From NCBI RefSeq assembly GCF_020515625.1, contig NZ_JAIWPJ010000002.1, positions 434,001 through 498,000 on the forward strand: a stretch of 64,000 nt of DNA, read 5' to 3'. The first letter of the stretch is position 1, and each line of letters opens with the position of its first letter. This document shows positions 8,213 to 29,048 of this stretch, piece by piece. This DNA comes from Natrinema amylolyticum. GTDB taxonomy: Archaea; Halobacteriota; Halobacteria; Halobacteriales; Natrialbaceae. The notes below the pieces were generated by a model. That model ran no database searches. It saw only the letters and a list, made by a program, of their open reading frames with translations, and was not told the origin of the DNA. A program made the translations under genes and the position numbers.

Positions 8213-10369
8213 TTAGCCCCGATTACCGCCCGAGTCGGGGTCGTCGATTCGCCGGCGACCCGACGCGGAGAGCGGGTTCGACACCTCGCTGGTCGCGTAC
8301 TCGTGACGCTTGCCCCGCAGCCGCATCACGGTCAGCGCCTTGTGGACCGTCGGCTCCGCGAACAGCGCCCGTTCGTCCCGCCGGATCCGCGATTCGGGGA
8401 CGTCGCCGTCGGCTCGGAGCCGCTCGAAAGATCGCTCGCAGTGCTCGCGGATCCGCGCCCAACACGATCGTTCGTCGACGCCCAGTTCGTGGCCGATCGT
8501 CGCGACGAGTTCCGCGAGGTGGTTCTGGAAGAGCGCGTAGTACAGCTTCCGGTGGCAGTCCGCCTCGCCGTCGGCGTCCAGATCCGACTCCGGATACGGC
8601 TCGAGCGAGAGGCCGCGGTCCGCGAGTCGGTCGCCGTGAATGCGAATTCCTCCGAGGTCGCGAACCAGCGTTGCGAGCGGGCGCGCGTCGGCGTCGAAGA
8701 CGACCAGACTGTTCTGGAGGTGGCTCTCGAGAGCGATGCCGTACGTACACAGCAGCCGAAGCTGGTCGGGGACGACGACGCTGGCGTACTCGTCGACGAA
8801 CGCGAGCGCCGCATCCGCGGTGCTCGTCGTCTCCCGGGTCTCCCCGTATCGATCGATCAGATCGCAGACGAGAGGGCGTCCCGAGGTCGGCGCGTCGGCG
8901 ACGAGGCTCGCGGCCACCACCGGGTACGTCCCGTCCGTCGCGAGCGGGTGGGCCTCGGGCGGCGTCCGCACCAGTCCGGACAGGTGGCGAGCGTCGTCGT
9001 ACCCCTCGCCGCTGGGGTGGGGACCGCCGGGCGGGTAGTAACACGTCGCCGCGGGTTCGGCCAGCAGTCCCAGCGTCTCGAGCGAGTCCCTCTCTTCGAT
9101 CGCTCGCACGACGTCGGTCACCCGCGGCCCGTTCGTCACGGCCTGCGGTGAGAGCGTCCGGACGACGTTCGTCGTCTGAACGGGGATCGCGAGCTTCCAG
9201 TGTGGGAGCGGGCCGTCACCGGTTCGGTCAGTCCGCTGTGGAATAACCGTTCGGAGATTCAGCTGCGGCGTCGCCGGATGCGCGTACTCGGGCAGCGGAA
9301 CGACGCGGCCGTCGGCGCGCTGATCGGCGTACCGGTCGGGAACCGTGCGATGGTACTGGAACGGATGAACGGGGACGACGGCGTACTCGTCGGTCGCGCG
9401 TCCGTCGGGAAGCGCGGACTCGAGTGCCCCCTCGAGCCCCGCGAACGTCGCGAGCAGTCGATCGGTCAGGTCCGCGGAATCGGTCGCGCGCGTCTCGAGG
9501 GCGTACTCGCGATCGATCGCGACGAACCGGAGGTCGATTCGGTCCGCGAACTCCGGCGCGTACGCGAGTCCGTCGCCGGGCGTCATCCCGCGCCGGATCT
9601 TGCCGCCGGGATGGAACGGGTGACCGTCGGTGACGATCCGCTCGAAGGACGCGGCGGCGTCGGCGGCCGGAACGCCGGTCGCGACGGCCTCGAGCGGTGA
9701 CGCCGATTCGAGGTCCGACTCCGTCCGCGCGTGAACGGCCGCCGCGAGCCGCGCGAGCGCGAGATTGGCGACGCTCTCGGCGACTTCCGCCCGGATCCGC
9801 TCGGCCTGCTCGGCGTCGCTGAACGCGCCCTCGCACTCGAGTAGCGGGACGAGATCCACCGGATGCGTGACGGGATCGACGGCGGTCGCAGCTGCTTCGG
9901 CCGTCTCGGCTACCGACCACCGATAGATCGGTCCGGTCAGTCGGAACCGGTCGTAGCCGTGTCTCGCGGCGATCCCGGCGACCAGAACGCTCCCGGACGC
10001 GGGCAGCGGACCGAGCGCGAGTCGCCGGCACTCGTCGGGGAGCGATTCGACGAGCGACCGGAGGTAATCCCCCTCGAGCGCCGAGAGCGGTTCGGGCTCG
10101 TCCGGAACCGTCGGAGCCGGCGACGGCCCGAGCGCCACGAACTGGGTGTCGGGCAGTTCGTCCGGGTCGCCGCGCAATAGGCCGCTGACGAATCGATGCA
10201 GGATATCGCGGCGACCCTCTTCGAGGGCCTCGAGATAGGCCGTCTCGGCCGGCGTCGAAAGGTCGTGCACTCGAGCGTATCGCGTCGCGACGCCGAACGC
10301 GGCTCGTTCCGCGGCGGTGGCGAGCGACTCGCGACGCCCGGTCGGACCCCGTCGGTTCGTCCCGTTCAT
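8213..10369 (-). CDS. IucA/IucC-family siderophore synthetase
   Basis: 718 residues. NIS synthetases join carboxylates such as citrate to amines or amino alcohols with ATP, making hydroxamate or related siderophores. The family fingerprint HPFHPGGKIRRGMTPGDGLAYAPEF is visible around residues 250-275 (shown here only in part as HPFHPGGKIRRG), with RFVAIDREYAL after it, and the FhuF-like C-terminal half with QNHLAELVATIGHELG. The start ATG at 10369 gives a normal family length. No partner gene (decarboxylase, monooxygenase, second synthetase, exporter) is nearby, which is unusual. Confidence 0.9.
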   Translation of the reverse strand: MNGTNRRGPTGRRESLATAAERAAFGVATRYARVHDLSTPAETAYLEALEEGRRDILHRFVSGLLRGDPDELPDTQFVALGPSPAPTVPDEPEPLSALEGDYLRSLVESLPDECRRLALGPLPASGSVLVAGIAARHGYDRFRLTGPIYRWSVAETAEAAATAVDPVTHPVDLVPLLECEGAFSDAEQAERIRAEVAESVANLALARLAAAVHARTESDLESASPLEAVATGVPAADAAASFERIVTDGHPFHPGGKIRRGMTPGDGLAYAPEFADRIDLRFVAIDREYALETRATDSADLTDRLLATFAGLEGALESALPDGRATDEYAVVPVHPFQYHRTVPDRYADQRADGRVVPLPEYAHPATPQLNLRTVIPQRTDRTGDGPLPHWKLAIPVQTTNVVRTLSPQAVTNGPRVTDVVRAIEERDSLETLGLLAEPAATCYYPPGGPHPSGEGYDDARHLSGLVRTPPEAHPLATDGTYPVVAASLVADAPTSGRPLVCDLIDRYGETRETTSTADAALAFVDEYASVVVPDQLRLLCTYGIALESHLQNSLVVFDADARPLATLVRDLGGIRIHGDRLADRGLSLEPYPESDLDADGEADCHRKLYYALFQNHLAELVATIGHELGVDERSCWARIREHCERSFERLRADGDVPESRIRRDERALFAEPTVHKALTVMRLRGKRHEYATSEVSNPLSASGRRRIDDPDSGGNRG

Positions 10370-23896: not shown

Positions 23897-24154
23897 CTAC
23901 CCCCAGCCAGTCCACAGCCCCGTGTCCGGTTCCGGCCCGCCAGCGAGTGCGGTGTCGACGAGGTTCCCGAGAGCGCGCCGCATCCGACCCGACAATGCCT
24001 GATGCGAGCAGTCGAGGTCGTCGGCGAGATCGTTCAGCGTAATCCCACGCGGAACCTCGAAGTAACCGTGCTCGAGGGCGGCTGCCAGCAGTGTCGCCTG
24101 CCCGTCCGTCAGCGGAGCAGCCTGCGTGTCGGTCGGAGACTGATCGCTCGTCAT
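23897..24154 (-). CDS. HTH_10 (bacterio-opsin activator type) small regulator
   Basis: 85 residues: LTDGQATLLAAALEHGYFEV, then PRGITLNDLADDLDCSHQAL and SGRMRRALGNLVDTAL, the classic HTH_10 domain usually found at the C-terminus of Bat-like regulators, here standing alone. It starts five bases after the stop of the upstream zinc protein and is the last gene of a three-gene unit of a kind often seen on haloarchaeal plasmids. Confidence 0.8.
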   Translation of the reverse strand: MTSDQSPTDTQAAPLTDGQATLLAAALEHGYFEVPRGITLNDLADDLDCSHQALSGRMRRALGNLVDTALAGGPEPDTGLWTGWG

Positions 24155-24159
24155 CGCGA

Positions 24160-24456
24160 CTACCTCATGGACTCAGCCTCGATCTCGCCGGCCGTGACCG
24201 GCTGACATGCGGCCTTCACGTTCTCGGGGAGATCTTCGAAAGCCGACTGGAACCGAGTCGGATCCTCAAGCGGATCCGGGCTGCCGATATCCAGACCGGC
24301 AGCGCTGCCGTCGGAGAGTCGATCGTAGGTATCGCACGTGGTGCAGCGATGGGCCCGATCCTTCTCGTCATAGAACCCGCGCCGAAACTGGGGCGTGACG
24401 TGTGAGCCACAGCAGAGGCACTGGTCTTGGTCCGCATCAACATCGAACCGCATCAT
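24160..24456 (-). CDS. Zinc-ribbon protein of plasmid/integrated-element type
   Basis: 98 residues from ATG 24456 (or the adjacent ATG at 24453). CLCCGSHVTPQFRRGFYDE and HRCTTCDTYDRL give two CxxC knuckles spaced about 25 residues apart, followed by an acidic C-terminal helix region ending in ITAGEIEAES-like residues (TAGEIEAESMR). It overlaps the upstream 42-residue zinc protein by about 20 bases and is followed directly by the HTH_10 gene. Confidence 0.72.
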   Translation of the reverse strand: MMRFDVDADQDQCLCCGSHVTPQFRRGFYDEKDRAHRCTTCDTYDRLSDGSAAGLDIGSPDPLEDPTRFQSAFEDLPENVKAACQPVTAGEIEAESMR

Positions 24457-24565
24457 GGCCGACACCCCCCTCTTCAAGGGCAGGGCAGTCTTGCTCAGAC
24501 TTTTTGATCGAAAGCCCACAGAACGCACAGACTGGTCGATACTCGGCGCTGCGCTCGAGGCTCAC
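24437..24565 (-). CDS. 42-residue Cys-rich mini-protein
   Basis: GTG 24565 to TGA 24437. The core VCAFCGLSIKKSEQDCPAL has C-x2-C plus a third Cys ten residues later, and His37 and Cys42 near the end can complete a metal site. The CAFCG...DCPAL pattern recurs in small proteins of haloarchaeal plasmids (from memory). It is the first gene of a three-gene unit and overlaps the next zinc-ribbon gene. Confidence 0.6.
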   Translation of the reverse strand: MSLERSAEYRPVCAFCGLSIKKSEQDCPALEEGGVGHDAVRC

Positions 24566-24805: not shown

Positions 24806-24982
24806 TCGTACGCATCCCACAGTTCCCGTCGGGAATAGATAAACCCCTCGAATTCCTCGAGCCCCCGTCACGGTCCCACACTCTCACCGGCGAACGGCCC
24901 CGCTCGCCTCGAGCAGACCGGCTCAGACCCTCGGGGACCGATAATTCCAGTAGTTATAAGTTACACTACAAACAGTATTTCG

Positions 24983-25113
24983 ATGGAAGCTACGTTTCCG
25001 AAACCACCGCGAGGGGCATGCGTCGAAATGCCCCGGGTGCTGAGACACCCGAAGCGTGGCTTCCAAGCCTACCACGGCTTTGCAAGCCATGTTCCAGTTG
25101 ATTCTACCGAGAC
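24983..25113 (+). ncRNA. Candidate structured RNA with multibranch fold
   Basis: A TATA box (ttataa, 24954-24959) predicts an RNA start near 24983. From 24986 a 9-bp stem GAAGCTACG/CGTGGCTTC (24986-24994 with 25055-25063) encloses two hairpins: GGGGCAT/ATGCCCC (25013-25019, 25028-25034) and GGGTG/CACCC (25035-25039, 25046-25050). A third hairpin follows (AAGCC/GGCTT, 25065-25069 and 25076-25080). The 3' strand of the outer stem can pair instead with AAGCCAT (25084-25090), an alternative fold. No protein frame fits. H/ACA-like guide RNA or a regulatory leader are possibilities; I cannot name the family. Confidence 0.5.
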
Positions 25114-25125
25114 ATAAACGTCTCG
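25108..25125. promoter_or_regulatory. Inverted repeat after the candidate RNA
   Basis: CGAGAC-ataaac-GTCTCG is a perfect 6-bp inverted repeat with a 6-base AT-rich centre. It could end the upstream structured RNA or, because the centre resembles a promoter box, control the small gene at 25190. Symmetry is seen; function is inference. Confidence 0.35.
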
Positions 25126-25189
25126 CACGACAGCAGCGCCAGCATCGTCCGTACTCGAGCCAGCAACCGACCCCCGACGGAGCGCCACA

Positions 25190-25399
25190 GTGACCGACGG
25201 CAATCCGGACGCGCCCGAGCCCGTTGCGGCGGATGCGTCCACCGACGCCGACGCCGCCGAGTCGGACGGCCACTCGAGCTTTCCGCCGTGTCCCCACTGC
25301 GACGACCGGGTGGTCACGGTCACGTCTCGAGGACCGATGACCCACGTCGCCGGGCCGTGTGGCTGTCGGCTCACGCCGAGAGACGTTCGTCGGCTGTAA
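25190..25399 (+). CDS. Small zinc-finger-like protein
   Basis: 69 residues from GTG. The first ~30 are acidic and Ala-rich; the core PPCPHCDDRVVTVTSRGPMT and HVAGPCGCRLTP contains CPHC and CGC with a histidine, a probable metal site. Similar small proteins are conserved in haloarchaea (from memory). It might be expressed from the RNA promoter upstream with a long leader, which would make the structured RNA its 5' untranslated region. Confidence 0.62.
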   Translation: MTDGNPDAPEPVAADASTDADAAESDGHSSFPPCPHCDDRVVTVTSRGPMTHVAGPCGCRLTPRDVRRL

Positions 25400-27713: not shown

Positions 27714-27784
27714 GCGCGGATGGTCTAGTGGTAGGACCTGAGCCTTCCAAGCTCATGGCCCGGGTTCAAATCCCGGTCCGCGCA
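27714..27784 (+). tRNA. tRNA-Gly (anticodon TCC), island attachment site
   Basis: Acceptor stem GCGCGGA/TCCGCGC with discriminator A; anticodon arm TGAGC-CTTCCAA-GCTCA gives TCC (glycine); T arm CCGGG-TTCAAAT-CCCGG. Intact gene. Its last 41 bases and one further base are repeated exactly at 40931-40972, so it served as the integration target and remained functional because the element carries the replacement 3' end. Confidence 0.96.
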
Positions 27785-27785
27785 T
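27744..27785 (+). repeat. attL: attL: 42-bp direct repeat inside tRNA-Gly
   Basis: Identical over 42 bases to 40931-40972. It begins in the anticodon loop (CTTCCAAGCTCATGGCC) and ends one base past the tRNA. The bases on either side differ between the two copies, so the boundaries are exact in this sequence. Confidence 0.93.
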
Positions 27786-27938
27786 CACTGTTCTCCGTAT
27801 CGTCAGCATCCATTCGAGCGAAGACCGTCTCAGTGCAGTAAGCCAGTGACCCACAAACAGGGTTCACGCGAAACTGGACGAGACGTAACTCGTGGCTTCC
27901 GGGTTTCCTCACGTAGACAGTACACGGTCCATCGACCT

Positions 27939-29048
27939 ATGAGTGAAGAAACCGAGAACATCGTCCTCGTACCAGAACCGTCAGTGAAACACCTTAACCC
28001 TCGACAGCGCGTCTCCTACCGAGACCACCGGAGCAAGCTCGTCGACTGGATGCTCTCCGAGGGAAAAGATCCGAAGCGATCGATCGGCTACGCCCGTTCG
28101 ACGACTCGTCAACGTTCGTACCGGCTCGATACGCTCTACCGAAAAACGTGGAAGGCAGAGAACCGATATACGGAGAATATCACCCCGACACATGCGGACG
28201 CTTGGATGGAAGAGTTAGCAGAGACGGACTACTCCCGGAGCTACAAACACTGCTGTCAGAAAGCGGCACAGACGTTGTTCAAGTGGAAACGACACGAGTT
28301 CGGCAGCTCGGTCGAATGGGAGCCGAAAATATCGTTTGTATCGCGATCGGTCCACAGTCCGCGCGATTTTCTCACGCGTGACGAACGGGAGCGCATCCGG
28401 GAGGCTGCACTCGAATATAGAGGGATTCCCGACTACGACGCCGTCACGCCTAACGAGCGCGAGAGCTGGTGCCAGTACCTCGCGCAGCGATTGGGAAAGC
28501 CGAAGGAGGATGTGACGGTAGACGACTGGGAAGCCGCGAACGACTGGAAGATACCGTCACTACTGTGGACGACGCTAGATGTCGGATTGCGCCCGATCGA
28601 AGTGCGGCGAGCGACGACGTCGTGGATAGACGCGGCGAACAGCGTGTTACGGATTCCGAAGGAGGATTCGGCGAAGAACACGGATCACTGGCAATGTAGC
28701 TTGTCGGACCGAACGGTGATGGCAGTCGAACAGTGGCTTGAAGAGCGGAGCTGTCGCGAGAAATACGAGGACACGGAGCAGCTCTGGCTCACTCGGTTCG
28801 AAAACCCGTATTCGACCGGATCACTGAACCGAATATTTAGAGAAATCTGTGCGGAGGCCGGAATCGCAGTGGTGAATCGAGACTTGACGTGGTACTCGAT
28901 GCGCCACAGCATTGGAACGTACATGGCGAACGAATTGACGGTGAAAGCGGCCGCAGCACAGTTACGCCATCGGTCCATCAAATCCACGATACGGTACGAT
29001 CGAGCGCCGATCGAGGAACGAAAGGCGGCACTCGAGCAGATGGGATGA
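27939..29048 (+). CDS. int: Tyrosine recombinase / integrase of the island
   Basis: 369 residues. N-terminal SAM-like core-binding domain (to about residue 135) and a C-terminal catalytic domain with Arg218 in GLRPIEVRRA, Arg322-His323 in WYSMRHSIGTYM (Tyr replaces the usual first His of the H-x-x-R box), His344 in LRHRSIKSTI and nucleophile Tyr353 in TIRYDRAP. It would cut and rejoin the 42-bp att sites. The upstream open frame extends to 27846; ATG 27939 is the best start. Codons are less G+C-rich than in flanking core genes. 154 bp from the tRNA. Confidence 0.9.
   Translation: MSEETENIVLVPEPSVKHLNPRQRVSYRDHRSKLVDWMLSEGKDPKRSIGYARSTTRQRSYRLDTLYRKTWKAENRYTENITPTHADAWMEELAETDYSRSYKHCCQKAAQTLFKWKRHEFGSSVEWEPKISFVSRSVHSPRDFLTRDERERIREAALEYRGIPDYDAVTPNERESWCQYLAQRLGKPKEDVTVDDWEAANDWKIPSLLWTTLDVGLRPIEVRRATTSWIDAANSVLRIPKEDSAKNTDHWQCSLSDRTVMAVEQWLEERSCREKYEDTEQLWLTRFENPYSTGSLNRIFREICAEAGIAVVNRDLTWYSMRHSIGTYMANELTVKAAAAQLRHRSIKSTIRYDRAPIEERKAALEQMG

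Follow-up and report, generated by a model that had tools for sequence, protein, structure and literature searches.

Bacterial attenuators and translational riboswitches work through mutually exclusive helices, one of which covers the start region; as for archaea, few natural cis-regulatory RNAs are to our knowledge known. Among haloarchaeal viruses, the T1 leader of phiH1 is reported to be targeted by an antisense RNA called T(ant) (Stolt and Zillig 1993, as relayed in PMC4284463), and binding of T(ant) is followed by cleavage by host RNases, which removes the ribosome-binding site (reviewed in PMC4284463). Hand inspection of T1 reveals a leader of 151 nt directly before a PadR gene, in which a 5', a middle and an AUG-proximal third strand compete, and T(ant) starts one base before the T1 AUG (MK002701 annotation). 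With regard to gene content, a similar pair is found in the brz-brb operon of Halobacterium salinarum (PMC3184054), where a small CPxCG zinc finger is co-transcribed with a small basic protein; the zinc finger comes first in that operon, unlike in the operons described below.

The window, the whole stretch of 64,000 nt of Natrinema amylolyticum DNA that was analysed, contains a leader that likewise has exclusive helices with one of them over the start region, but it differs from the bacterial attenuators and riboswitches in being archaeal, in having no known ligand, and in having its start codon between conserved helices on both sides. It is probably an mRNA leader that acts in cis and contains the start codon, recurring widely in haloarchaea and in their plasmids and temperate viruses, and it is likely a translational switch. 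Its parts are the following:

24955..24960, + strand: TATA box TATAAG, the leader promoter, 30 nt 5' of the first P1 base (read directly)
24982..25133, + strand: full extent of the structured leader as matched by the covariance model; the RNA is predicted to begin near 24985
24985..24998, + strand: P1 5' strand, GGAAGCUACGUUUC (fold, covariation, swap test)
25013..25034, + strand: P2 hairpin, stem 25013-25019/25028-25034 (fold; two-sided changes in 5 of 6 model pairs, 79 sequences)
25035..25050, + strand: P3 hairpin, GGGUG/CACCC (fold; 99% of cells paired; two-sided changes in 3 of 5 pairs)
25051..25064, + strand: P1 3' strand, the middle strand common to both folds (fold, covariation, swap test)
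25065..25080, + strand: P4b hairpin, AAGCC/GGCUU (two-sided changes in 4 of 4 model pairs)
25084..25089, + strand: third strand, AAGCC plus the A of AUG, which pairs with 25057-25062 (P4a) and excludes P1 (swap and shuffle tests)
25089..25193, + strand: upstream ORF, 34 aa, basic, MFQLILPRHKRLARQQ...; its stop overlaps the next start (GTGA, 4 nt)
25108..25125, + strand: P5 hairpin, CGAGAC-AUAAAC-GUCUCG, within the upstream ORF at +20 to +37 from the A of AUG (two-sided changes in 6 of 6 pairs)
25190..25399, + strand: single zinc-finger protein, 69 aa, CPHC...PCGC, second cistron (reading frame)

A first-pass annotation of this DNA had proposed a TATA box, an outer stem enclosing two hairpins, and a CGAGAC/GTCTCG repeat; all are present, the stem being P1 around P2 and P3, and the repeat forming P5, with stem strands 25108-25113 and 25120-25125. 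That annotation overlooked the start codon, AUG at 25089-25091 inside the leader element, and the multicopy nature of the sequence. The predicted fold has a minimum free energy of -59.1 kcal/mol and a z of -4.4, and 0 of 200 shuffled sequences folded equally well. An ORF starting at 24983 and translated as a leaderless message was considered and rejected, the ATG not being conserved.

Regarding the family, a DNA search covered 61 genomes, and a covariance model, R1, was widened twice, giving R2 and then R3. The DNA search matched 28 of the 61 genomes, nearly all belonging to the genus of the window and a second one, and the genome of the window itself has 8 copies; R1 gave 33, 29 and 28 copies in single genomes, 33 being the maximum in Natrialbaceae. 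With R3, the element in the window scored 138.7 bits and was the sole match within it, and 300 of 391 Halobacteria genomes, from 78 of 86 genera, were matched at E<=1e-3, a count based on rough E-values in which weak matches were not checked singly. In a control set of 247 genomes of the phylum, R3 matched 35 of the 43 Halobacteria and 0 of the 204 others, whose base composition may differ from that of haloarchaea. The covariance models of Rfam 15 were run against the window and 20 diverse loci, and tRNA alone exceeded the gathering threshold; the leader element itself had no Rfam match up to E 1. The leader is thus a member of a previously unlisted structured-RNA family of haloarchaea and their viruses. 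In several species the copy corresponding to that of the window adjoins tRNA-Ala(GGC) at the same site, which indicates an old chromosomal copy; this conserved position, together with the promoter and gene carried by every copy, led to the rejection of a MITE-like mobile element.

The layout is the same across copies: P1 encloses P2 and P3 and is followed by P4b, by the start codon, and then by P5 within the coding sequence. The spacing between the TATA box and P1 is 30 nt in 35 of 37 close copies; under a strict pattern this offset recurs in 72 of 135 copies, and no other offset exceeds 3. Stems P1 to P5 all covary. In 79 class-wide copies, aligned by fitting to the structure and hence biased towards it, two-sided changes affect 30 of 33 pairs, and the double-change cells number 362, against 91.7 ± 8.6 when shuffled (0/500) and a maximum of 66 when slid. 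The covariation of the stems in 102 close copies agrees with this picture. Conservation and compensatory change, on which the first-pass annotation had made its proposal depend, were therefore found in both sets of copies, and they extend to the alternative pairing.

This alternative pairing, also foreseen in that annotation, involves the 3' side of P1: bases 25057-25062 (UGGCUU) are complementary to 25084-25089 (AAGCCA), with the hairpin 25065-25080 between them. When the P1 strands were exchanged between copies, the energy went from -23.5 kcal/mol for own strands to -18.4 for swapped ones (0/5000); for P4a, a strict swap test (15 nt by 8 nt) returned -7.98 for own strands and -7.19 ± 0.17 for swapped ones, again with 0/5000. 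Between the middle and third strands, 106 of 122 copies show a run of at least 5 contiguous pairs; once the third strands are shuffled, such runs are left in 24 copies on average. The two strands also change jointly, as in L194 (middle UGGUCUUCC with third AAGACCAUG), L190 (GGCUGUCUC with CAGCCAUG) and L204 (GGGUUCUC with AGAACCCAUG); other clear cases are L131, L134, L140, L160, L187, L202 and L199. Column-wise pair counting found no signal for P4a alone, probably because the third strand shifts register, and the swap tests were used instead. Both exclusive pairings are thus supported by covariation, as seen in the swap and shuffle tests, which is the first property expected of a two-state switch.

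The predicted energy prefers P1 by several kcal/mol in 50 of 55 copies, so a switch without assistance would remain ON. This dominance of P1 would also suit a static platform for translation initiation or mRNA stability, in which P1 to P5 present the start codon or shield the 5' end and P4a is a by-product; the fixed AUG-to-P5 spacing and downstream genes that share no metabolic theme fit it as well. However, the third strand tracks middle-strand changes in several separate lineages, and the middle/third runs given above far exceed those with shuffled strands, making a static platform unlikely. A translational switch is probable instead, given two competing folds of which one covers the start codon, and it would operate as follows. 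RNA synthesis would start at the first P1 base. In the ON state, the 5' end would pair with the middle strand as P1, enclosing P2 and P3, and the start codon would be accessible in the gap from P4b to P5; in the OFF state, with P1 lost or invaded, the middle strand would pair with the bases up to and including the A of AUG (P4a), so that the start codon is covered. Translation of the first ORF would then be relayed to the next cistron via the 4- or 8-nt stop/start overlap, the relay target in the window being the small zinc-finger protein of the second cistron. We infer that the two folds interconvert in cells and control initiation, as well as which of them is the default state.

As for the coding part, nearly all leader copies sit just 5' of coding genes, with the start codon included in the element, as expected of a cis-regulatory leader. 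An ORF of at least 25 codons begins at the embedded AUG in 132 of 135 copies, compared with 41 and 14 in the other frames. The overlap between its stop and the next start is -4 nt in 86 of the 135 copies, -8 in 19 and -11 in 6, an arrangement that, as read from the sequence, is that of a translationally coupled operon. In close relatives the product of the first ORF is basic and about 30-45 aa long (M..ILPGYKRPAR or RHKRLAR), while that of the second is a small CPxC...PCGC zinc finger; leader, overlapping short ORF and zinc-finger gene co-occur in nearly all close copies, and some copies have an in-frame fusion of the leader ORF with zinc-finger domains or with an integrase. The zinc-finger protein at 25190 had no profile match above cut-off in Pfam, NCBIfam or PHROGs, and a sequence-pattern scan of the loci, a weak test, found no Bat/HTH_10 neighbours of the kind known from brz. 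In L106, L109, L112 and L115 the first zinc-finger gene is followed by another small CPxCG protein, and in one genome (G062; L113, L116, L125-L133) the leader and upstream ORF lie 5' of small zinc fingers of a distinct type, CYRCDRDVA...YCCEHCAAAMNLSEF, for which Pfam and PHROGs gave no match. Two leader copies, L005 and L016, have a broken zinc-finger frame; in L005 the frame of the upstream ORF is shifted too, a sign that leader and genes decay together.

Even where the genes are unrelated, P5 keeps a fixed spacing, beginning some 20 nt past the A of AUG. Its stem exchanges A-U for G-C along with a peptide change from GYKRP to RHKRL (Gly to Arg, Pro to Leu), so that pairing is preserved at the cost of the peptide. 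On the minus strand, the complement of the P5 loop (25114-25119 in the window, and likewise in other copies) is T-rich (GTTTAT or TTTATA), keeps a constant distance to the AUG, and is a candidate TATA box for an antisense RNA.

The first-pass annotation had left two options for this locus. The first, in which the RNA is a leader that switches the zinc-finger gene at 25190, is supported by the recurrent order of leader, ORF and zinc finger and by the covariation of both pairings, the effect on translation being the part we infer. The second, a free-standing small RNA such as an H/ACA guide positioned before genes by chance, would account for the compact structure with its own promoter, but it is very improbable: neither the window nor the 20 diverse loci matched a known H/ACA family, or any other RNA family for the element, in Rfam, and the ORF from the embedded AUG, the in-frame protein fusions and an annotated start codon within the leader of the virus SNJ2 all tie the structure to coding sequence.

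In other families, the leader lies 5' of SWIM-type zinc fingers, PadR regulators and tyrosine integrases. The two exclusive folds, the conserved junction and hairpins, and the many copies in one genome would suit a riboswitch with a small molecule or a metal ion as its ligand; the zinc fingers, integrases and PadR genes downstream, however, share no common pathway, and a riboswitch is improbable. A separate expansion of the leader was observed in genome G389, from another family and with 15 copies, where it took place independently before paralogous proteins of no known function (MTLPVFQFWDRLGE...; L199, L204).

An independent check came from seven haloviruses that were picked by integrase similarity alone and then scanned for the leader. 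Six of them, SNJ2 and five other pleolipoviruses, carry it before the int operon: E-values range from 8.5e-17 to 1.8e-10 for HRPV9, SNJ2, Harhisp1, Humcor2 and Halfgib1, and the value for HHPV4 is 1.5e-6; the seventh, LSV-48N, has no leader. In the betapleolipovirus SNJ2, whose int operon comprises int and two accessory ORFs, the leader (E 3.8e-11) has its embedded AUG at the annotated start of gp3, a PadR-type protein; the surveyed literature, which did not include the original SNJ2 integrase paper, holds no description of it. Plasmid pHK2 carries the leader too. Exact leader DNA patterns had 0 matches in viral contigs, probably owing to sequence divergence, and blastn against phage records had none; the viral copies were located through integrase homology.

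For the early lytic transcript T4 of phiH1, the start has been mapped to 34556, 31 nt past TATAAG, and a P1-like stem begins with this very base. The T4 leader shares with the haloarchaeal one the promoter type, P1, P2 and P3, and a competing third strand, but the start codon is further downstream, beyond an apparent second set of competing helices, and the third strand does not adjoin it. The counterpart in phiCh1, in the gap between ORF48 and ORF49, is matched by R3 with E 1.7e-5; a leader of the phiH1 T4 type, with homologous structure and a start at P1, therefore belongs here, phiH1 itself being a partial match (E 0.19). No RNA family has been described for the phiH1/phiCh1 T4 leader in the surveyed literature. 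Within this T4-type leader, in phiCh1 (L341, ~9046-9260) and phiH1 (L342, 5557-5730), there is an apparent chain of exclusive helices, s2-s3, s3-s4 and s4-s5, the last of which covers the phiCh1 start codon.

The comparison with T1 of phiH1 bears on one more explanation, namely that an antisense RNA acts on the leader: starting just 5' of the AUG, it would span the leader entirely, as is reported of T(ant) on T1, with the T-rich complement of the P5 loop as TATA box. The 151-nt T1 leader before a PadR gene, its three-strand logic, the position of the T(ant) start and the reported removal of the ribosome-binding site by RNases after antisense binding (PMC4284463) are in line with this explanation, as is the A-rich P5 loop at a fixed +26. 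The P5 stem, on the other hand, shows covariation, a feature not required of a DNA promoter, and R3 did not match the T1 leader, so that any common descent with the haloarchaeal leader is putative. Antisense targeting of the leader is thus somewhat unlikely; the antisense RNA may also be what triggers the switch, and is a concrete candidate for this role because phiH T1 is reported to be so controlled.

The leader is present in most sampled haloarchaeal genomes, absent from the RNA family libraries searched, and placed ahead of int or early lytic operons in model haloviruses, and it offers a concrete RNA basis for the post-transcriptional control of phiH reported in the 1990s. It also marks an unannotated family of small zinc-finger operons; a single genome can have as many as 33 leader copies, and the operons may respond to a common signal. 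A broader proposal can be made tentatively: the leaders might form a haloarchaea-wide class of start-codon switches common to viruses, plasmids and chromosomes, in which early and int operons are under post-transcriptional control, possibly by antisense RNA, and the zinc-finger copies of Natrialbaceae are a co-opted and expanded regulon responding to one signal.

Elsewhere in the window, a tyrosine integrase-like gene (27846-29048) adjoins tRNA-Gly(TCC) (27714-27784), and this adjacency (27714-29048) suggests an integrated element starting there. Upstream of tRNA-Ala, on the minus strand at 23897-24528, an 85-aa ORF with a GYF..PR HTH-like signature lies beside an ORF with CxxC motifs.
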